A stretch of 11,058 nt of DNA from Rikenellaceae bacterium (GTDB lineage Bacteria > Bacteroidota > Bacteroidia > Bacteroidales > UBA932): positions 1 through 11,058 of the forward strand of contig CAAGGO010000088.1 of NCBI GenBank assembly GCA_900769385.1, written 5' to 3'. The notes under the pieces were generated by a model. That model did no database searches. It was not told the DNA's origin and saw nothing but the letters and a program-made list of their open reading frames with translations. The position numbers and the translations under genes were made by a program. Below are positions 1 to 8,456 of this stretch, in pieces. How positions within the stretch are numbered: position 1 is the stretch's first letter; each line of letters opens with the position of its first letter.

Positions 1-1
1 G

Positions 2-685
2 ATGTATGGTAACCTGGATTTAAAGACAGTTGTTTCAGATGCCCTAACATTAACCTACCGCTATGGAGGGGTGACTTGGGATATTACCGCCCGCACATAC
101 GGCACACTCTGCAATAACAAAATAGAATATCTTTCAAATGTTAATCCCGACGGCATTAAAGTTTCCACTTATGAGAATGCTGTTACGCACAACCATATTG
201 ATGAGATGATAAGTTTCAGTTGGGCTCCCGGCAAGAAGTTCAATTTGCAGGCTTCAGCACAACTGGGGTACAACTATTTCCATTGCCCTTCACTGAATCA
301 ATCAAATGAAGGTATTGCCTGGGAATTTGATCTCAGTTCCAATATTGTGCTTTGGCAAGGTGCTATGGCATTTACATCAGCAAATATTTATGGAGGTGAA
401 ACTACCTTGCAACGTACCTACCACGGAGCTGATTATGTCTACTCTTTTGGCCTCCGCCAAGGCCTGTTCCAAAACCGTCTTGTTTTTACAGCAACGGCTG
501 TGATGCCATTTCAGAAATACTACTATGGCCAGGAAAGGGACACTTATGCCCAAAACTATCACCAACACAACAAATCATGGTACTACCCACGTTTGTTCAG
601 ACTTAATGTTTCCTGGAGATTTGGTAAAACTGAAATAAACTTAAAGCGTACCAGAAAAAACAATGTGAGTGATAAGCATATTTGA
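2..685 (+). CDS. Outer-membrane beta-barrel protein, C-terminal part (5'-truncated by window)
   Basis: This is the C-terminal part of a large outer-membrane beta-barrel, most like the barrel domain of Bacteroidota CarboxypepD_reg/TonB-receptor-like proteins (OMP_b-brl_3 type). The reading frame is open from the first codon at the window edge, so the ATG at position 2 is probably internal and the gene starts upstream. The visible 227 residues alternate hydrophobic and polar/aromatic residues as amphipathic strands do, with Tyr/Trp girdles (for example YNYFHCPSL, KYYYGQERD). The last strand reads RLFRLNVSWRFGK and is followed by a short basic tail, a common ending in this family. A role in outer-membrane transport or structure is inferred; substrate and plug domain cannot be seen. 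It is followed after 193 bp by the ABC permease on the same strand, but separate regulatory elements lie between, so co-transcription is uncertain. Confidence 0.75.
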   Translation: MYGNLDLKTVVSDALTLTYRYGGVTWDITARTYGTLCNNKIEYLSNVNPDGIKVSTYENAVTHNHIDEMISFSWAPGKKFNLQASAQLGYNYFHCPSLNQSNEGIAWEFDLSSNIVLWQGAMAFTSANIYGGETTLQRTYHGADYVYSFGLRQGLFQNRLVFTATAVMPFQKYYYGQERDTYAQNYHQHNKSWYYPRLFRLNVSWRFGKTEINLKRTRKNNVSDKHI

Positions 686-720
686 GTTTAAATTTGGATT
701 AAGTTTGGCAAGTGCCTGAA

Positions 721-756
721 TGTAAAGAAGCATTACAACTGTAAAGAAACCTTACA
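721..756. promoter_or_regulatory. Two tandem 17-bp inverted repeats upstream of the ABC permease
   Basis: TGTAAAGAAGCATTACA (721-737) and TGTAAAGAAACCTTACA (740-756) are near-identical imperfect palindromes of the form TGTAAAG-N3-C(T)TTACA. Their starts are 19 bp apart, so they lie on roughly the same face of the DNA. A third copy lies at 859-875. This arrangement is what paired dimer sites of a transcription factor look like. Their distance upstream of the sigma-54-like element at 810 would suit upstream activating sequences of an NtrC-family activator. The regulator is not in the window. Confidence 0.5.
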
Positions 757-809
757 TCCTTTAATTGGTGTGTTTTTGTATATTATTGATATATAGTAGA
801 ATACAAGTT

Positions 810-824
810 TGGCACAGTTTTGTC
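810..824 (+). promoter_or_regulatory. Possible sigma-54-like -24/-12 element (weak)
   Basis: TGGCACAGTTTTGTC carries a good -24 half (TGGCAC), but the -12 half is poor. TTG is present one base too early compared with the usual TGGCAC-N5-TTGC layout, and spacing matters in sigma-54 promoters. The call rests partly on context: paired palindromes 54-89 bp upstream, and an FtsX-type permease downstream, a gene class that in Bacteroidota is often found near sigma-54-dependent response regulators. It may be a chance match. Confidence 0.25.
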
Positions 825-858
825 ACTTGTAAGGATATATAGATGAATTATGTAAAAT

Positions 859-875
859 TGTAAAGTAACTTTACA
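859..875. promoter_or_regulatory. Third copy of the 17-bp inverted repeat, abutting the permease start
   Basis: TGTAAAGTAACTTTACA is the most symmetrical of the three copies and ends three bases before the ATG at 879. It therefore covers the region where a ribosome would bind. A factor bound here could block transcript elongation, and the same sequence in RNA could form a 7-bp hairpin that masks the start. Both roles are inferred. Confidence 0.45.
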
Positions 876-878
876 CTT

Positions 879-3215
879 ATGAAAAATTTCCTTGCTATAC
901 TTAAGAAATATACCCTGGCAATGGTGATGAACTTCACAGGCCTTGTACTTGCTTTTACAGCATTCATGGCATTGATGCTCCAAGTGGGATACCAGCAGAG
1001 TTTTGATAAGATGCACCCTACATCTGGAAGAATATATAGAGTAGATAAGGTTGGAATAGGAAATGATGATGTGTTCCGCAATATCTTGCCAAGAGGATAT
1101 GTAGATGATATTATTGGTTCTTCACCCCATATCCAAACTGCCACTATCAGTTGTCCATTTATTGAGGAGGGGGTTTTCTATGCCCAGAGGGGAAATAATC
1201 TTGAACCGTTTGCATTTAAATCGGCATGGGATGTGTGCTATCCTGGAATTTTTGAGATTTTTGGAACTGAAATTATTGAAGGGAGTGCAAAGAATCTTGA
1301 GAGCTATTCCAACATCGCAATACCGGAATCATTGGCAAAGAGGCTGTATGGGGATGAATCTGCTTACGGAAAAGTAATTACCAATGACCGGATGTTTGGA
1401 TTCAGCGATGCCAACGCCAGAGAAATGGTAGTTGGAGTAGTATATAGGGACTTTCCTGCAAACTCCCAGATGCGTAACTGTATCTACAGGCATATAGGTA
1501 CAATGCAACAGGGAAATTATGGCGGTGCAAATTTCGCTTGCTGGATTCTTTTGGATTCACCGGAGAACAAGACTCTTGTAGAAGATAATTTTAACAGTAA
1601 TCTTGATTACGGAGAAAACAAGGATTGGCTTACTGATATAGAACTTACCCCTATAGAGGATATTTATTTTGAGGATGAAGGGAGCGCCATATACCGTAAC
1701 GGCAGTAGAGGGCAGATGTGGCTCTTGATATGTATCTCAGCTCTGGTGATGCTTATAGGTGGAATAAATTACTCTACATTCTTTACTGCTCTGGCCCCAA
1801 TAAGGGTAAAAACAATAAATACACAGAAAGTGTTGGGCAGTTCCCAGTTCCAGTTGCGCAGGGGATTGATTGTGGAAGCTGTAGTATTCTGCCTTTCGGC
1901 ATTTGCAATATCACTGTGCATTATTGCTCCTGTTACAGAGTGGCTGTATTCTCAAGGCCTGTCTGAATCATATTTTACATTTGCAGGACAGCTTCCGTTG
2001 GTATTGCTTTCTGCTGGAATTGCTGTTTGCACAGGCCTTGCTGCGGGGATATACCCAAGTTTATATGTTACCTCATTGCCACCTGCATTTGCTCTGAAAG
2101 GGAATTTTGCATTTTCACTGTCGGGAAGAAGATTCAGGACCATAATGATGGTATTGCAGTATGTAATCTCATTTGCACTGCTGGTATTTGTGGCACAGGT
2201 CTATAGACAGAATAAGTTTATGATGGAGCACGATTTGGGTTTTGACAGGGAACAGGTGCTGGTAACCAGGATTTCACAGAAGCATTATCTGGAAAAAGAG
2301 GATTGGCTGAGAGAAAGACTATGTTCGCTACCGGAAGTGGAGGATGTGGCATACGCATCTGATCTGGTTGGAGGAGAGGATGTATATGGAGTAACTACCC
2401 TGAATCTGCGCGGCGAGGACGTGAGAACCTTTACCCTTTATTGTTCATACAACTTTTTGGACGTGTTGGGAATCCCAGTGGTTGACGGAAGAAATTTCCT
2501 GGAGTCCGACACGCACGGCACACAACACTACGCCATAATGAATCAGAAAGTGAAGGACCTGGGCGGGGCAATAGAGGAGACAATTATAGGCCAGAGTGGC
2601 CCGGTAAGGGTAAATTCTATGAGGAATGAGTCTGCACCACTCTTATATATTGTTCTTCCCGACGGATATGCCGCATTGGACTATACATATATCAGGCTTC
2701 ACAGCGGATTCAGCAAAACTGAAGCACTTGAGAAAGTATATTCAGTCTTGAAGGAGATGGATTCTGAATATCTGTTTGAGGTGAAACATTACGACGAGAT
2801 TCTGGGTATCCTATATGAACCGGAAGTAAAACAAGGGAAGATAATTTCACTGTTTACCCTCCTTGCAGCGGCTCTCTCACTTATAGGAGTATTTGGACAA
2901 GTATTGCTTGATGTGCAGTACCGCAAAAGGGATATTGCAGTAAGGAAAGTATATGGAGCAGAAATATCAGGTTTGATTGTTGGAGGATTGCGTAAATATT
3001 TCATGCTTGTAATGGTATCTTTTATAATTGCAGTACCGGTTGCCTGGTACGCAGTAACCCAATGGCAGCAGAACTTTGCAGAGAGGACAGGTGTTTCAGC
3101 CTTACTTTTCATAGGTGCATTCATAGCAATCCAAGCCATTACCATTGCAATTGTGGCCTTTCAGTACTGGCGTGCCGCCACCTTAGATCCTGCAGATACA
3201 TTGCATAAGGAGTAG
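879..3215 (+). CDS. MacB/FtsX-type ABC transporter permease
   Basis: An inner-membrane permease of the MacB/FtsX superfamily, which couples ATP hydrolysis by a separate ATPase to movement of its large periplasmic domains (efflux of peptides, lipids or drugs, or mechanotransmission). The 778-residue protein has the duplicated plan common in Bacteroidota. TM1 is at about 13-37, a first periplasmic domain at about 40-275, and three TMs lie at about 281-400. The second half starts with a TM at about 423-445 (MMVLQYVISFALLVF), has a second periplasmic domain, and ends in three TMs from about 655. The cytoplasmic motif RKRDIAVRKVYGA just after the first of the last three TMs matches the family's coupling helix (usually EIGIRKxxGA). 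No ATPase, HlyD-type adaptor or TolC is in the window, so its partners must lie elsewhere or upstream. Substrate unknown. Confidence 0.9.
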   Translation: MKNFLAILKKYTLAMVMNFTGLVLAFTAFMALMLQVGYQQSFDKMHPTSGRIYRVDKVGIGNDDVFRNILPRGYVDDIIGSSPHIQTATISCPFIEEGVFYAQRGNNLEPFAFKSAWDVCYPGIFEIFGTEIIEGSAKNLESYSNIAIPESLAKRLYGDESAYGKVITNDRMFGFSDANAREMVVGVVYRDFPANSQMRNCIYRHIGTMQQGNYGGANFACWILLDSPENKTLVEDNFNSNLDYGENKDWLTDIELTPIEDIYFEDEGSAIYRNGSRGQMWLLICISALVMLIGGINYSTFFTALAPIRVKTINTQKVLGSSQFQLRRGLIVEAVVFCLSAFAISLCIIAPVTEWLYSQGLSESYFTFAGQLPLVLLSAGIAVCTGLAAGIYPSLYVTSLPPAFALKGNFAFSLSGRRFRTIMMVLQYVISFALLVFVAQVYRQNKFMMEHDLGFDREQVLVTRISQKHYLEKEDWLRERLCSLPEVEDVAYASDLVGGEDVYGVTTLNLRGEDVRTFTLYCSYNFLDVLGIPVVDGRNFLESDTHGTQHYAIMNQKVKDLGGAIEETIIGQSGPVRVNSMRNESAPLLYIVLPDGYAALDYTYIRLHSGFSKTEALEKVYSVLKEMDSEYLFEVKHYDEILGILYEPEVKQGKIISLFTLLAAALSLIGVFGQVLLDVQYRKRDIAVRKVYGAEISGLIVGGLRKYFMLVMVSFIIAVPVAWYAVTQWQQNFAERTGVSALLFIGAFIAIQAITIAIVAFQYWRAATLDPADTLHKE

Positions 3216-3276
3216 GTAGCGTTGCTCAGTTTATGTTGTTCCACTCTCTACGCACTAAAGTGCTACGTTCCCTACA

Positions 3277-3376
3277 CAACAACACTCAGCAACCTGTTAT
3301 ATATTTGGTGGAGGGCAAGAGTGTTGTTGCTCCCGTGGTACTCATTTGGGAGAAGACCGACAAAGGCGGTCTCTCC
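3277..3376. repeat. Two nested-arm inverted repeats in the non-coding region after the permease
   Basis: CAACAACACTC (3277-3287) and GAGTGTTGTTG (3319-3329) form a perfect 11-bp inverted repeat with a 31-nt loop. Just downstream, GGGAGAAGACC and GGTCTCTCCC (about 3350-3379) form a second long stem with one bulge. Small open frames exist here but none looks like a protein. The stretch also contains AAAGGCGGT (3362-3370), a motif shared with the repeat units at 7423 and 7750. I read it as the 5' part of a degenerate repeat unit whose 3' part is the hairpin at 3426-3472. Confidence 0.4.
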
Positions 3377-3425
3377 CTTATCACTCGCACCACTCCCACA
3401 AAACAACACACTTGCCTACAGAAAA

Positions 3426-3472
3426 CTCCGTAGCAAAATGAGTGATTTTAAATTGTCTCACCAGTGGTGAGA
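3426..3472. repeat. Hairpin repeat, left copy (cargo flank)
   Basis: The 19-mer CTCCGTAGCAAAATGAGTG (3426-3444) recurs exactly at 7786-7804. After a 6-bp variable spacer both copies continue with AATTGTCTCA and then a tight stem-loop. Here the stem is TCTCACC / GGTGAGA around an AGT loop (3456-3472). Compared with the right copy, both stem positions next to the loop differ in a compensating way (C-G here, G-C there). This is the left member of the repeat pair that brackets the two defence operons. Confidence 0.6.
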
Positions 3473-3481
3473 GTTTTATAA

Positions 3482-3601
3482 ACGCCCGGTCAAGACTTCA
3501 GCCGGCAGGCCGTCAGAAGACTAGTCCTTAATGGGCTGATAGAAAAAGCGATAAGATTACATTCAGCTGTGCAAAATGTAGCCTTATCACTTTTGTCTTA
3601 A
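3482..3601 (+). pseudogene. Possible remnant of a winged-helix-like C-terminus
   Basis: One frame is open for 39 codons without a start codon and ends in TAA at 3599-3601. Its translation contains FSRQAVRRLVLNGLIEKA, which has the look of a helix-turn-helix recognition region (S-x-x-A-V-R-R-L-V-x-x-G-L-I-E). The frame is closed just upstream by a TAA at 3479-3481. The piece is too short to assign, and the resemblance may be chance. If real, it is debris of a gene once located at this island edge. Confidence 0.2.
3550..3588. terminator. Probable bidirectional terminator between the permease side and rloB
   Basis: GATAAG (3550-3555) and TACATT (3558-3563) pair with AATGTA (3575-3580) and CTTATC (3583-3588), giving two 6-bp helices separated by a 2x2 internal loop. 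On the plus strand the hairpin is followed by ACTTTTGTC. On the minus strand it is followed by GCTTTTTC. It lies about 50 bp downstream of the rloB-like stop codon, so it most likely ends the minus-strand defence operon and may also stop readthrough from the left. Confidence 0.5.
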
Positions 3602-3637
3602 AACTCAAATTCCTAAAGACAGATCCAATGTTATTGT

Positions 3638-4225
3638 TTATCCTTTATTTTCTTCAAATAGTCTGATAGCCTTGTAAATGAGTGAATATGACTGGCTGTC
3701 TTCAGGTAAAGATTCGGCTGTCGTGCAAGCATTTTCAAGTTTATTGTCTGCACATAGATTGGCTACCCATTGTTGCTTTTCAAGATAGTTGCCGTGTTTG
3801 TTGTATCCTGTAAGATACTTGTTGAGTGTTTTGATGACATCTTCGGAACTGTGGAAATACTTGCTGGTTTCTATATAGTGCAGCAGGAACCAGAATTCAA
3901 TGGATGGCATGCTGTCGCAGATAAAAACTCTCTCATTTTTCTTGTAATCAGATTTCATCTTCTCAAGTCTTTTGCGCTCGTTTTCGTTGGTTCTAGTGAT
4001 GTCGGCATCACAGATGCAGACAGCAATTCCACCGTTTTGAAGAACATGCTCAATAAGTTTGCCCATCTCAGTGTATGATTGCTGAGAAAAGAATCTGGGT
4101 TTGCAGTCGTAACGGAATCCTTTAAGGTTTCTCAAATGCTCAACGTACCATCTTTCTGTAAGGCCTTCTCCAATTACAGTTATTCTTGAGCGTTTCAGCT
4201 CTCTTTCTCTTCTACCTCTCGCCAT
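3638..4225 (-). CDS. rloB: RloB-family Toprim-like protein (AbiL-type abortive infection, second component)
   Basis: A 195-residue protein of the RloB family, the partner of an AAA ATPase in RloA-RloB / AbiL abortive-infection loci. The visible motifs fit a Toprim-like metal-binding nuclease core: a basic start (MARGRRERELKR), then VIGEGLTERWY with Glu20 and Glu24, then ICDAD with Asp73 and Asp75, then SMPSIEFWFLLHY with Glu110 and His116, the block most typical of RloB proteins. From the family, the expected role is the toxic effector that acts on nucleic acid when the ATPase senses infection; the substrate is not known from sequence. The gene starts 11 bp after the ATPase stop codon on the same strand, so the two are one operon. 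Length is normal for the family and no key residue appears to be missing. Confidence 0.85.
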   Translation of the reverse strand: MARGRRERELKRSRITVIGEGLTERWYVEHLRNLKGFRYDCKPRFFSQQSYTEMGKLIEHVLQNGGIAVCICDADITRTNENERKRLEKMKSDYKKNERVFICDSMPSIEFWFLLHYIETSKYFHSSEDVIKTLNKYLTGYNKHGNYLEKQQWVANLCADNKLENACTTAESLPEDSQSYSLIYKAIRLFEENKG

Positions 4226-4236
4226 AGCATATAACT

Positions 4237-5523
4237 TTAAATGTAAATTTCTGGAATTGCGCCAAACTGGCCGTTTTTGTATGATTTGCGGATTGAAGAA
4301 AGTTTATTCAACCCCTTAAAGTCTGTCAACGGATATATTTCCGTATTGCCGTCTTCTTTTTTCTCTGTAAACCATACAGAGTCTTTTCCAAATAGGTCAT
4401 CAATACCATCTAGTAAAGGATCATAGTGGGTAGTTACAAGCAACTGGGATCTGTTGTCCTCTTCCTTAAGGAATCTGTCCAATATGAAATCGAGTAGTAC
4501 AGGGTGCAATGAAGCCTCAATCTCATCTATATCCAAAAAGGCCTGCTCTTTGATTGTTGTAAAGATTGCAGATTCAATCTCTATCACTCTTTTTGTCCCG
4601 GCAGACTGGCTGCTCTCCGGTAGTATATATTCTTCATCTCCACGAGAATTCTTTACTTGAATTTTGAATCCCGTATTTATGTCATTAATAGTTCCTCTTG
4701 CCAAAATCTCTGCCTTTTCTGATTCATCTATGAATTTTGCAGAAGATATGGCCTCAATTTGACGTGGGCTTAGATTATATGTAGTCTCTTCCACCTTGAT
4801 TTCTGCAATCCTCAAGTCTGCTTTCTTTGTGAACTCTTTAATATATTTGCGGAATGCTTCATCCCTAAGCATTTTGTCCTTGGCATATCCTGAAAGCTCA
4901 GTAGTGCTGTCAATACCGGGCAAAAGCTTTTCGTTAATCCATCGGATAACACTGCTTATTCTGTCAATATTCATATTTACCTTTGTCATAGAGGCAAAAA
5001 ATGACATGTTTTTCCAGCAGTTCAGATTGATGGCATCAATCTCTGCTGGTTTAAGTTTTACTGCAGCTGGATTGAATTTAACCACCGATTGATCATTAGT
5101 GTATTCTCTCCAGAAAATACGAGTGGGCTGTACAGATTCATAAAAATATAAAGACTCCGCAGAAACCCTCTCCTTGTTAAGCTCAAGTTTGTACCAGTAT
5201 TTTGTTCCATCTGCGTAGAACTTCATCTCAAAACTGCTGTCCTCATTTGGAGTGTTCTTGTCCAAAAGGAATGGTGCTACTCGGGTTGAAAGGTCGTTTC
5301 TTGCAGGGACCTGAGACCAGAATCGGCGCAGAAAATCCAATGCCTCAAGGAAATTGGACTTTCCTGAAGCATTTGCACCAAAAATCACTGCAAATCTCAG
5401 AAGTTTTGTGCCGTCTGGCATTATTGCCACTCTATTTATAGGGTCGTCTTTTGTCGGCTCAAAGCTGAAGTATGCCTCGTCTCTGAATGACAAAAAGTTC
5501 TTGAATTTTATCTCTTGTATCAT
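4237..5523 (-). CDS. rloA: RloA/AbiLi-type AAA ATPase (ABC-type ATPase fold)
   Basis: A 428-residue soluble ATPase related to the OLD/SMC/ABC-type AAA_15/AAA_21 group. The N-terminal signature IQEIKFKNFLSFRDE is the typical first strand of these proteins. Walker A is GANASGKS at residues 49-56. The late SSQSAGTKR segment is a signature-like motif, Walker B plus catalytic Glu is LDIDEIE at about 330-336, and TTHYDPLL carries the switch His (about 366). The ATG at 5523 is chosen over one 60 bp upstream because the homologous fold starts there and because the upstream start would overlap the promoter box at 5542-5549. It is followed by rloB at 11 bp. In related two-gene systems (AbiL, PARIS) the ATPase is the sensor or scaffold that restrains and releases its Toprim partner; applying that here is inference. 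Confidence 0.88.
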   Translation of the reverse strand: MIQEIKFKNFLSFRDEAYFSFEPTKDDPINRVAIMPDGTKLLRFAVIFGANASGKSNFLEALDFLRRFWSQVPARNDLSTRVAPFLLDKNTPNEDSSFEMKFYADGTKYWYKLELNKERVSAESLYFYESVQPTRIFWREYTNDQSVVKFNPAAVKLKPAEIDAINLNCWKNMSFFASMTKVNMNIDRISSVIRWINEKLLPGIDSTTELSGYAKDKMLRDEAFRKYIKEFTKKADLRIAEIKVEETTYNLSPRQIEAISSAKFIDESEKAEILARGTINDINTGFKIQVKNSRGDEEYILPESSQSAGTKRVIEIESAIFTTIKEQAFLDIDEIEASLHPVLLDFILDRFLKEEDNRSQLLVTTHYDPLLDGIDDLFGKDSVWFTEKKEDGNTEIYPLTDFKGLNKLSSIRKSYKNGQFGAIPEIYI

Positions 5524-5541
5524 AATCTGCCAATGTTTTTG

Positions 5542-5549
5542 CAAAGTTA
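5542..5549 (-). promoter_or_regulatory. Bacteroidota -7 box of the rloA-rloB operon
   Basis: On the minus strand this reads TAACTTTG, an exact TAnnTTTG match, and would give a leader of only about 10-15 nt before the ATG at 5523. No TTTG lies at the usual 19-21 bp upstream; the nearest is 11 bp away. That upstream zone is instead filled by the 36-nt palindrome at 5568-5603. Confidence 0.5.
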
Positions 5550-5567
5550 TATAATATAAACAAATAT

Positions 5568-5603
5568 TAAAATAAAATAGCAAATACTTGCTATTTTATT
5601 TTA
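5568..5603. promoter_or_regulatory. Perfect 16-bp inverted repeat with 4-nt loop upstream of rloA
   Basis: The arm TAAAATAAAATAGCAA (5568-5583) is followed by ATAC and then its exact reverse complement (5588-5603). Sixteen paired bases without a mismatch is far beyond chance even in AT-rich DNA. It lies just upstream of the rloA -7 box, where a -33 element or an operator would be expected, and between two divergent operons. It may be a repressor or activator site, or a hairpin in a transcript entering from the right. Confidence 0.6.
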
Positions 5604-5693
5604 GAAAATAGGCGCATATATGCCAATAATGGGTACAAACTGTCAAAATGGCAAGATTCTCCAATTGGTATAGAAATTGCCACTCCTGGTATT

Positions 5694-5709
5694 AAAGATG
5701 GCCATCTTT
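5694..5709. promoter_or_regulatory. Perfect 16-bp palindrome upstream of the TIR operon
   Basis: AAAGATGGCCATCTTT is a perfect palindrome without spacer, ending 43 bp before the ATG at 5753. Its position and symmetry suit an operator for the plus-strand trio. No TAnnTTTG box was found between 5604 and 5752, so the promoter of this operon is not defined. A shorter palindrome, GCATATATGC, lies at 5614-5623. Confidence 0.5.
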
Positions 5710-5752
5710 TTAAAATTAATTTAACAAAAAGAAATATAATAATGAATAGATT

Positions 5753-6175
5753 ATGAACAATACATTAGATTCGGAGCCTATACGCCATTATCTTTCCTTG
5801 CTCCAGGACAATATTACGAGAATGGCATCCAATTCTGCAAATTGTAAAACGTGGACTATTACCATTGTAACTGCACTTTTAGCCTTAACTCTTGCTGATA
5901 AAGCAATTACTGAATTTTTGCAAGTATTGTACATACCTGTATTTCTATTCTATCTGTTGGATTCGTATTATCTATCAGTTGAGCAAAGGTTTAGAAGTGT
6001 TGAGAATGAGTTTGTCTGTAAAGCAAAGATTGGAGAGGATATAACTGATTTGCTTTACGCATTCAATATCCATAAATTTACTTGGTATAAGCAGTTTTTC
6101 AGTGCTACCACTTCCATTTCTGTATGGCCGTTTTATTTAATTATTGGGTTTGTAATAACATTAATAATATTGTAA
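5753..6175 (+). CDS. Small three-pass membrane protein of a TIR-associated operon
   Basis: A 140-residue protein of a family I recognise only as uncharacterised membrane proteins found beside TIR genes. A soluble N-terminal helix (about 1-30) leads into TM1 at about 33-49 (TWTITIVTALLALTLA) and TM2 at about 56-74. Next comes the striking segment LLDSYYLSVEQRFR at 68-81, a cytoplasmic helical region, and TM3 at about 122-140, where the protein ends. There is no signal peptide and no enzymatic motif. The gene is first in a tight operon, with only 4 bp before the TIR start codon. From context I infer that it is a membrane effector (pore or depolariser) or membrane anchor for the TIR protein. It could also be an accessory control protein. 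Its DNA looks more AT-rich than the flanking chromosomal genes, which fits horizontal transfer. Confidence 0.7.
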   Translation: MNNTLDSEPIRHYLSLLQDNITRMASNSANCKTWTITIVTALLALTLADKAITEFLQVLYIPVFLFYLLDSYYLSVEQRFRSVENEFVCKAKIGEDITDLLYAFNIHKFTWYKQFFSATTSISVWPFYLIIGFVITLIIL

Positions 6176-6179
6176 TACT

Positions 6180-6851
6180 ATGGGGCGAAATGTTTTTGTA
6201 TCATACAAATTTGGAGATTCCAATGTTCAGCCTTTAAGAGGGGAATGGAGTACTACTGCAAGGAGTTATGTGAATGAAATTGAAAGACTGTTGGCAAATA
6301 ATGGCCATGCATATTATGGAGAACATCAAAATGAAGATTTGAGTTATTGGAGTGATCAACAGATATACGAAAGGCTGAAGAATAAGATCTTTCCCACTTC
6401 CTGTACGATAGTTTTAATTTCACCCAATATGAGAGAAAAAGGAAGGCTTGACAAAAGTCAGTGGATACCATGGGAAATATATTATTCACTTCGTGAAACA
6501 ACAAGGAATAATTTTACGAGTCGTAGGAATGCTATCTTGGCAGTAGTATTACCCGATATTAATGGTAGTTACAATTATGCAATAAGTAAAAAACAATGTT
6601 GCCATCTCGGGTGTACGGAATTTCACAGGACAAACTTATTTACTATTCTTAAAGAAAACATGTTTAACCTGAAAAATCCTACTACAAGTATATGCGGACA
6701 AAACGATAAGATATGGTATGGAGAATTTAGTTATATACCAATGGTCAGGTGGGATTATTTCAAAGACAATGTTGATGATTGTATTGAGAGAGCTGAGAGA
6801 ATAAAAGACAATGTAGAGAATTACGAATTACATATAAATGTCAATCAATAA
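6180..6851 (+). CDS. ThsB-like TIR-domain protein
   Basis: A 223-residue protein whose first 140 or so residues are a TIR domain of the Thoeris ThsB-like group. It opens with the classic first strand NVFVSYKFGD (4-13). It continues with the YYGEHQNEDLS segment (45-55) and TIVLISPNM (76-84), and it carries the motif WIPWEIYYSL with Glu99 at the position of the TIR catalytic glutamate. The C-terminal part (about 140-223) contains CCHLGC and the GEFSYIPMVRWDYF stretch, which resembles the tail of this TIR subfamily. TIR proteins of this kind sense phage and make ADP-ribose-derived signals from NAD+. In classical Thoeris the signal activates ThsA, but no SIR2/SLOG, Macro or caspase-like protein is encoded here; instead two membrane proteins flank this gene at 4 and 8 bp. 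NADase activity is inferred, not shown. Confidence 0.85.
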   Translation: MGRNVFVSYKFGDSNVQPLRGEWSTTARSYVNEIERLLANNGHAYYGEHQNEDLSYWSDQQIYERLKNKIFPTSCTIVLISPNMREKGRLDKSQWIPWEIYYSLRETTRNNFTSRRNAILAVVLPDINGSYNYAISKKQCCHLGCTEFHRTNLFTILKENMFNLKNPTTSICGQNDKIWYGEFSYIPMVRWDYFKDNVDDCIERAERIKDNVENYELHINVNQ

Positions 6852-6859
6852 CTGTACAG

Positions 6860-7321
6860 ATGGAAACAACCAATATTATAATCAGTATATTAAGCTTGCT
6901 TGTTTCATTTGCAACCTTAATCTTTTGTGTGATAAAATATTCAATTCACGAAAAGATACTCAATAAACAACAGAAACAGATCAATGATTTTATGTTGCAG
7001 GAATATGAGAATGAAATAAATGCTCAGAAACAAGCTTTCATAGACGGAAAAATTGAACCCTTTACCAAAGGAAGTGTAAGATTAAGAGTAGCTAACATAG
7101 GGTACGCAAATGCTAAAAATATTAGGGTGCAGGTTATAAGTGATACATCTGGTTTAATAATGCCACAAATAAATGATATAGAATTATTGAATCCTGGAGC
7201 AGATTACGCGTACGAAATCCATTTAATGAATGGATATATTAAAACACTAAGACTAAAATTTATCTGGGATGATGATTATGAATCTAATCGCGAAGCAGAG
7301 GTTCATTTACAAATAAGATAA
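6860..7321 (+). CDS. Membrane-anchored protein with coiled coil and Ig-like beta domain
   Basis: A 153-residue protein with one N-terminal TM (about 5-26, NIIISILSLLVSFATLIFC). A basic/glutamine-rich helix follows that may form a coiled coil (about 28-65, KILNKQQKQINDFMLQEY). The C-terminal half (about 68-153) alternates like an Ig/CARDB-type beta sandwich: SVRLRVANIGYANAKNIRVQV is the usual 'valine-rich strand, N-x-G turn, A-K-N-I-x-V' pattern. It closes with KFIWDDDY and a final strand. I know similar unnamed proteins from Bacteroidota accessory loci but no assigned function. It starts 8 bp after the TIR stop codon, so it belongs to the same operon. By architecture it could bind a ligand or a phage protein with its soluble domain, and so act as a receptor or effector partner of the TIR enzyme; this is inference. 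Confidence 0.7.
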   Translation: METTNIIISILSLLVSFATLIFCVIKYSIHEKILNKQQKQINDFMLQEYENEINAQKQAFIDGKIEPFTKGSVRLRVANIGYANAKNIRVQVISDTSGLIMPQINDIELLNPGADYAYEIHLMNGYIKTLRLKFIWDDDYESNREAEVHLQIR

Positions 7322-7722: not shown

Positions 7723-7862
7723 GCACTGTTGCTAAGTTGTACTACCTGGAAAGGTGGTACAAATGCAAAAGGTGGTACAGAGATGCTCCGTAGCAAAATG
7801 AGTGTGTTGAAATTGTCTCAGCAGTGCTGAGACAAACTGAAAACTCTCAACAGTGTTGAGAG
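7723..7862. repeat. Diverged hairpin-repeat unit, second right-hand copy (matches the left flank)
   Basis: In order it has GCACTGTTGC (7723-7732), AAAGGTGGTAC twice (7750-7760 and 7768-7778, period 18 bp), and the 19-mer shared with 3426-3444 (7786-7804). Two perfect stem-loops follow, both with loop AGT: TTGTCTCAGC / GCTGAGACAA (7813-7835) and CTCTCAAC / GTTGAGAG (7844-7862). Upstream, TGTACTACCT and AGGTGGTACA form another 10-bp stem with one G-T. This is the right member of the pair that brackets the defence cargo. Confidence 0.6.
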
Positions 7863-8047: not shown

Positions 8048-8056
8048 TAAACAAAG

Positions 8057-8456
8057 TGGAGATGGGCGGACTCGAACCGCCGTCCAACCAAACCATCAAT
8101 ATGCTTTCTACATGCTTATTCTTTCTTTAATTGTAGGGAGCAGGCTGCCGAAAGACAGGCCACCTGAACCTTACCCTTTGAGTCTTAGGGTGCTTTAAAG
8201 GAGTCCACACCGGCATCCCGCTTGGAATGATACCCCATATGCCAGACCCATAGCAGGATTAAAGGGTTGGCGGGATACTTGTCCACCCGGCAACCTTGGC
8301 GGGGCGGATTAAGCGTAATAGCTTGGCTGATTACGCAGCAAGTGCATAAGAATTGTTGCCAGTTATAGGCGTGCAGTTGGAGATTATAGAGCTTGGCTGC
8401 CAATGCTCTGCATGCTTACATACCAATTAATCTGATGTCAAAACCAAAACATCCCC
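8057..8456 (-). ncRNA. ssrA: tmRNA (transfer-messenger RNA), tag GNNSYALAA
   Basis: tmRNA rescues ribosomes stalled on broken mRNA and adds a degradation tag. The 5' GGGGATG (8456-8450) pairs with 3' CATCTCC (8064-8058) as a 7-bp acceptor stem with one G-U. The T arm is a 5-bp GGCGG/CCGCC stem around TTCGAGT (8081-8065), and the discriminator is A. The tag frame reads from GGC at 8360 to TAA at 8331 and encodes GNNSYALAA, with the Tyr-Ala-Leu-Ala-Ala end normal for Bacteroidota. The bases after the discriminator are CTT, so CCA is not encoded and must be added. About 400 nt is the usual length. The 3' end faces the defence region, the orientation expected if ssrA served as an integration site. 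Confidence 0.95.

Follow-up and report, generated by a model that had tools for sequence, protein, structure and literature searches.

In this study, we found that a three-gene operon of a Rikenellaceae bacterium carries, directly upstream of a TIR gene, the gene for a small membrane protein of the M50A family, whose relatives recur next to TIR genes in many phyla. Judged from gene neighbourhoods, the conserved unit is M50A plus TIR, not the trio. We see an even chance that these two genes form a Thoeris-like defence unit, in which a signal made by the TIR protein, or the TIR protein itself, would act on M50A as a membrane effector, with gene 3 as an accessory of the lineage. TIR enzymes have a central part in the immunity of bacteria, plants, and animals, and the way in which their signals are read is an open question.

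Organization of the operon and its surroundings

The features discussed here lie in the window, that is, the whole stretch of 11,058 nucleotides that was analysed:

3638-4225, minus strand: RloB protein, matching PADLOC AbiLii at 1.4e-14
4237-5583, minus strand: AAA ATPase, matching PADLOC AbiLi at 9.1e-78
5753-6175, plus strand: gene 1 (M50A), 140 residues, predicted three-pass membrane protein of the PADLOC candidate family PDC-M50A
6180-6851, plus strand: gene 2 (TIR), 223 residues, ThsB-type TIR protein, putative NAD+-using enzyme with Glu99
6860-7321, plus strand: gene 3, 153 residues, one membrane helix and an Ig/adaptin-ear-like beta domain, apparently accessory and outside the conserved core
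about 8056-8456, minus strand: tmRNA gene, 3' of the trio

The three genes of the operon lie on the same strand with intergenic gaps of 4 bp (gene 1/TIR) and 8 bp (TIR/gene 3), which is the layout and spacing that an earlier, sequence-only reading of this DNA had described. That reading had also called the operon one without ThsA, and this holds for the nine ORFs of the window that were scanned, because Pfam gave no SIR2, STALD, macro, or caspase-type match there. Thus neither a SIR2-SLOG nor a TM-macro ThsA effector was found among these nine ORFs (a caspase-type ThsA also exists). For a protein identical to gene 1, the longest contig recorded has 11,058 bases, so that the window is probably a complete contig, and a ThsA gene may still be present elsewhere in the genome.

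The AAA ATPase and RloB genes are back to back with the TIR operon and divergent from it. They are also present in L001, the nearest relative, and are likely a second defence system of the same island. A 47-bp direct repeat (89%), at 3426-3472 and 7786-7832, brackets the five-gene island, and a palindrome is visible in the sequence at about 7813-7835. The left flank of the island (3449-3542) is an 89% match to the island's right-hand side in L001. A mobile cassette close to the tmRNA gene possibly has its ends at the repeats and the palindrome.

The TIR protein

Gene 2 has the ThsB-like core that it had been credited with, as it matches Pfam ThsB_TIR (PF08937) with 34.9 bits against a cut-off of 21.2 and the PADLOC ThsB model PDLC00428 at 1.2e-71. 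The match to the PADLOC PDC-M50B model PDLC04688 is weak (1.1e-3, residues 3-106), that to the ThsB model being far better. The only close solved relative of this protein, PDB 9vyl (3.1e-61), is named 'Putative cyclic ADP-D-ribose synthase TIR1'. Glu99, which had been proposed as the candidate catalytic residue, is retained: it is invariant in 27 aligned TIR rows, and Glu is found at this column in 55 of the 56 TIR proteins that neighbour M50A across bacteria, the exception being a 112-residue ORF with a gap there.

M50A, a membrane protein with an invariant polar motif

Gene 1 matches four PADLOC PDC-M50A models, the best being PDLC04686 (6.2e-27, residues 11-138). No Pfam family corresponds to M50A, judged from scans of gene 1 and of 64 M50A members, and Pfam detected in them no recognised nucleotide-binding domain and no NADase, SLOG, or macro domain. 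With hydropathy windows of 1.4 or more, residues 34-56, 50-76, and 116-140 are covered, and the AF2 model, built from 64 sequences, has helices at 8-48, 50-93, 98-101, 111-119, and 125-139 with a mean pLDDT of 80. Taken together, hydropathy at 1.4 and the modelled helices fit the three membrane passes proposed in the earlier reading, two passes being counted at the stricter hydropathy threshold of 1.6.

Because our scan of GTDB genomes used the pattern LD[SCA]YYL[SG][LVQ]E, the conservation of M50A was recounted on 23 M50A sequences fetched via TIRs or by plasmid tblastn, without the motif pattern. R23, N27, S28, K32, W34, F66, D70, and E77 are kept in all 23 rows, and either Tyr or Phe occupies positions 72 and 73. 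R23, N27, S28, K32, and W34 shortly precede membrane helix 1, and D70 and E77 come shortly after helix 2; provided that the N terminus is in the cytoplasm, all of these residues would lie on one side of the membrane. An invariant motif of this kind exceeds the needs of a plain pore and points to a site for a specific contact or a ligand.

Pairing of M50A with TIR across bacteria

A scan of GTDB species genomes gave M50A relatives at 62 loci in many phyla, including Bacteroidota, Bacillota, Cyanobacteriota, Pseudomonadota, Planctomycetota, and Chloroflexota, and in one archaeal MAG. A TIR-type ORF is adjacent on the same strand in 40 of the 62 loci and lies within two ORFs on either strand in 44; as a control, only 2 of 352 ORFs located four or more positions from M50A are TIR-type. 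The nearest adjacent TIR is no more than 20 bp from M50A in 33 of the 40 loci, and two or more same-strand TIRs lie within two ORFs in 11 of the 62. The loci with no TIR within two ORFs number 18, among them L060, where Pfam finds an adjoining TIR_2 protein. The TIR neighbours of M50A are of several unlike kinds (ThsB_TIR is matched by 43 and TIR_2 by 39 of 56, Pfam, E ≤ 0.01, the two sets overlapping). Among annotated plasmids, a TIR-annotated gene lies within two genes in 12 of 13 M50A records, three of which had been picked via TIR.

These tabulated neighbourhoods extend the co-occurrence beyond the present locus for gene 1, which is found with TIR across phyla, but hardly at all for gene 3. 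The earlier suggestion that the trio is complete in itself therefore survives in part. M50A with TIR is plausibly complete without ThsA, because the TIR is of the ThsB kind, the window has no ThsA, the Glu is kept, and the membrane partner is recurrent; the trio, however, is not the conserved unit, as gene 3 was seen to adjoin a TIR only in the window and in L001.

M50A with TIR is carried by conjugative plasmids of E. coli and Klebsiella, and therefore the pair could be studied in E. coli K-12. One such plasmid pair is matched at near level by 10 of 5,426 E. coli genomes, in 9 of them over at least 80% of the pair. In one region of enterobacterial conjugative plasmids (L124:2175-3461), M50A and TIR are annotated as a hypothetical protein and a TIR protein.

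Several loci have other arrangements. In L003 (325-2374), an M50A gene (45% identical) is followed after 1 bp by a gene for a 540-residue protein without a Pfam match, and there is no TIR. In an L. plantarum plasmid (L127:1676-3399), a TIR gene, an AGS_C sensor-domain gene, and M50A stand in a row, and L046, L048, and L051 (about 4885-6423) have TIR, an Nmad2-type gene, and M50A in a row, where Nmad2 was assigned by Pfam for L051 and the genes of L046 and L048 cluster with it.

Exchange of M50A and ThsA beside the same TIR type

With a profile of the window TIR's subfamily (A3), matches were obtained in 7 of 393 genomes of one order, in 12 of 399 genomes of one family, and in 2 viral contigs. 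Two genomes (G001 and G012) were already known to carry an A3 TIR, and with the repeat loci (L063 and L076) dropped, 19 TIR-fetched loci were obtained. M50A is present in 9 of them, a SIR2-STALD ThsA in 2, and neither in 8. At 37% or higher identity to the window TIR (14 loci, including L071, which runs into the end of its contig and is compared over just 65 residues), 9 loci have M50A and none has ThsA; below 37% identity (5 loci), none has M50A and 2 have ThsA. M50A is on the opposite strand in L077, and the neighbouring stretch is masked in L065. Three of the loci with neither partner (L068, L074, and L081) have a SLOG cluster3 gene by Pfam, and some such loci also have further TIRs.

Together with the window, five M50A-fetched loci, and seven plasmid regions chosen by TIR match, these make 32 A3-type TIR loci. 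With ThsA sought by SIR2-STALD queries only, the partner is M50A in 17, a SIR2-type ThsA in 7, both in none, and neither in 8; by the same queries, ThsA is absent from the stretches of the 16 M50A-bearing loci other than the window. Most genome loci were covered over about 3.6 kb and pEM3 over positions 1-6,798 of its 56,151 bp, and with stretches as short as these a ThsA gene may still lie farther off; of the 313 records with a ThsA match, 60 were covered. In four plasmid relatives of the TIR (38-44% identity), a SIR2 gene is the direct neighbour or stands two genes away. The possibility, raised in the earlier reading, that ThsA is the usual neighbour of this TIR subfamily is thus true of these four plasmid relatives but not of the close relatives among the TIR-fetched loci (0 of 14 at 37% or higher identity).

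A tree of 31 TIRs (L071 omitted) has 5 partner-label changes, of which at least three are forced by starred (well supported) branches. Since the partner labels are not clustered on this tree beyond shuffles (93 of 500 shuffles were as low for M50A and 89 for ThsA), the inferred partner switches rest on few starred branches. The most clear-cut case, a starred pair of sisters, consists of the TIR of the L. plantarum plasmid pEM3, where TIR is followed by M50A, and that of a Leuconostoc plasmid, where a SIR2-STALD ThsA is followed by TIR; the two TIRs are 71% identical over 222 residues. They amount to a natural experiment, in which one plasmid has its TIR with ThsA and the other with an uncharacterised membrane protein. 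The arrangement with M50A recurs in a 9,596-bp plasmid record of L. plantarum, where the TIR shares 68% identity with that of Leuconostoc and no SIR2 gene is annotated. We read M50A as a stand-in for ThsA, because the same TIR type pairs with either one, the two were never seen together, and the 71% identical sisters differ in their partner. Thus M50A seems to take the place of ThsA and, in that place, is probably a membrane effector.

How M50A and TIR may work together

In the favoured scenario for the two-gene unit, phage infection would activate the TIR protein, which, as its family and Glu99 suggest, would turn NAD+ into an ADP-ribose-derived signal. This signal, or the activated TIR protein itself, would act at the polar patch of M50A (R23, N27, S28, K32, and W34 with D70 and E77), on the presumed cytoplasmic face. 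M50A would then open or damage the inner membrane, and the infected cell would stop, dying before the phage matures. Nucleotide-related domains in related loci (SLOG cluster3, AGS_C between TIR and M50A in L127, and Nmad2 beside M50A in L051) were counted in favour of this scenario. On the other hand, M50A shows no recognised nucleotide-binding domain, and one small M50A that serves unlike TIRs is more easily explained by direct contact than by one nucleotide. The 18 M50A loci with no TIR within two ORFs and the M50A frame of L001, interrupted beside an intact TIR, also count against the scenario.

We also put forward, tentatively and with less than even confidence, that M50A represents a further class of Thoeris. 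This would be a three-pass effector without a ligand domain of its own, gated when ADPR signals from the TIR enzyme, or the activated TIR protein itself, act at a conserved interfacial motif (R-x3-N-S-x3-K-x-W ... D-x6-E). It would have been exchanged repeatedly with ThsA beside the same TIRs and would serve many TIR types across bacteria, including those of enterobacterial conjugative plasmids. M50A thus raises the question of whether ADP-ribose signals can be received by a membrane protein that has no recognised nucleotide-binding fold, or whether such a protein is driven by contact with TIR.

Alternatively, and this is the chief doubt about the scenario above, M50A may act upstream, holding or triggering TIRs as a membrane-bound sensor or scaffold, in which case the TIR protein would be the NAD+-destroying effector of an NADase system. 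A single M50A family with many unlike TIR types suits such protein contact, as does the lack of a known ligand-binding domain in M50A, and docking could take place at the conserved polar residues. We nevertheless regard it as unlikely, for TIRs of the same clade, one pair of them the 71% identical sisters, sit with ThsA, which PMC11204291 describes as the effector of the ThsB signal, and M50A and ThsA never occur together in the 32 stretches.

Gene 3 and the nearest relative

Gene 3 has one N-terminal membrane helix by hydropathy and a seven-stranded beta domain (pLDDT 85), in agreement with its earlier description as a TM/beta-domain protein. The best Foldseek PDB match of the beta domain is the yeast GGA1 GAE domain (3.8e-4). 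If both membrane proteins were needed, the trio would be one system in which gene 3 reads the signal or regulates M50A, and a membrane helix with a beta domain is a plausible receptor. Gene 3 is just 8 bp from the TIR gene, and L001 keeps the order of the trio, with the three proteins aligning to those of the window at 84-90% identity. However, a large protein search gave only four gene 3 homologues, of which three are 80-98% identical and the fourth is a chimeric fragment. A search of the order's genomes matched 9 of 393, namely the genome of L001, with the trio, five clear relatives (E 7.7e-18 to 2.4e-8), and three further matches (E about 0.003-0.006) that were treated as chance. The five distant relatives have neither M50A nor an A3-type TIR in their 3.4-kb stretches, and M50A with TIR is widespread without gene 3. 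Thus we consider a system that needs all three proteins quite improbable, and from this distribution gene 3 looks like a lineage-specific, accessory add-on to M50A and TIR.

The chimeric fragment (P0004, 97 residues) joins the start of M50A to the end of gene 3, and represents either a deletion spanning TIR or an assembly artefact. In L088-L091, the gene 3 relatives adjoin a gene of about 90 residues with zinc-ribbon-like cysteines, for which Pfam support, in the one member scanned, is weak, and in L087 and L088 they adjoin genes that by eye resemble hsdS. The zinc-ribbon-like small genes, all beside gene 3 relatives in Bacteroidales, are located as follows:

L088, 1968-2240
L089, 1232-1507
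L090, 1902-2315
L091, 1238-1513

The zinc-ribbon-like gene and the gene 3 relative are possibly a two-gene module of their own.

In L001, the TIR and gene 3 frames are intact, and the M50A frame (L001:6001-6430) stops after 89 residues, with tblastn similarity running on to residue 128. That M50A is an antitoxin-like or immunity protein restraining TIR is highly improbable, for although a small partner within 20 bp of TIR in 33 of 40 loci recalls toxin-antitoxin pairs, 15 of 32 A3-type TIR loci are without M50A (with ThsA or neither) and L001 keeps its TIR whole although the M50A frame next to it is interrupted. The 89-residue form of M50A (P0011) is recorded for 12 contigs, but these may derive from few samples that were assembled repeatedly.

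Relation to known systems

PADLOC lists M50A with a partner, M50B, as PDC-M50, a label which we take to mark an untested phage defence candidate. Gene 1 resembles this system through its matches to the M50A models; the match of the TIR to M50B is weak, and the TIR is far closer to ThsB. Full-text search of the literature gave no paper with the name 'PDC-M50', and no test of a pair like this one turned up in literature searches. The concern that the operon is already a named system is therefore justified only to the extent of a candidate label: M50A with its partner was already known as a PADLOC candidate and, as far as we found, the pair has a database label only. What we add is that this ThsB-type TIR is assigned to PDC-M50, that M50A keeps a motif, that M50A and ThsA occur separately in the stretches covered, and that two sister TIRs, 71% identical, differ in their partner.

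According to PMC11204291, the signal of Thoeris is produced by ThsB, and ThsA acts as the effector. The M50A unit shares with Thoeris of the SIR2-SLOG type its TIR family, TIRs as much as 71% identical being found with ThsA or M50A, and has, like it, one or several TIRs per partner. Unlike that type, it has no SIR2 or SLOG/STALD in the nine window ORFs, and M50A matches no NADase or SLOG. In Thoeris with a TM-macro ThsA, as PMC11204291 describes it, a TIR enzyme is paired with a membrane protein whose presumed role is membrane disruption upon the signal. A TIR enzyme with a membrane protein is also what the M50A unit has, but in M50A three membrane helices are apparent and no macro domain is matched.

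PMC9503650 predicts that in pairs of TIR with SLATT (2TM) proteins, the SLATT protein is a membrane-permeability effector. The M50A unit resembles them in having a small membrane protein beside TIR, with a layout of cytosolic helix, membrane hairpin, and cytosolic helix, but M50A has a third helix and a motif of its own. Membership of M50A in SLATT was considered and rejected. No SLATT model was among the Pfam matches of 64 M50A members (E ≤ 0.1), and hhalign gave probabilities of 2.3% with SLATT_1 (6 sequences) and 0.1% with SLATT_5 (2 sequences), the other SLATT families being covered by the Pfam scan alone. By this comparison, the M50A unit would share the membrane-permeability logic of TIR-SLATT, not the SLATT domain. 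SLATT_1 genes were themselves seen to adjoin what by eye resembles TIR in L099, L101, and L102.
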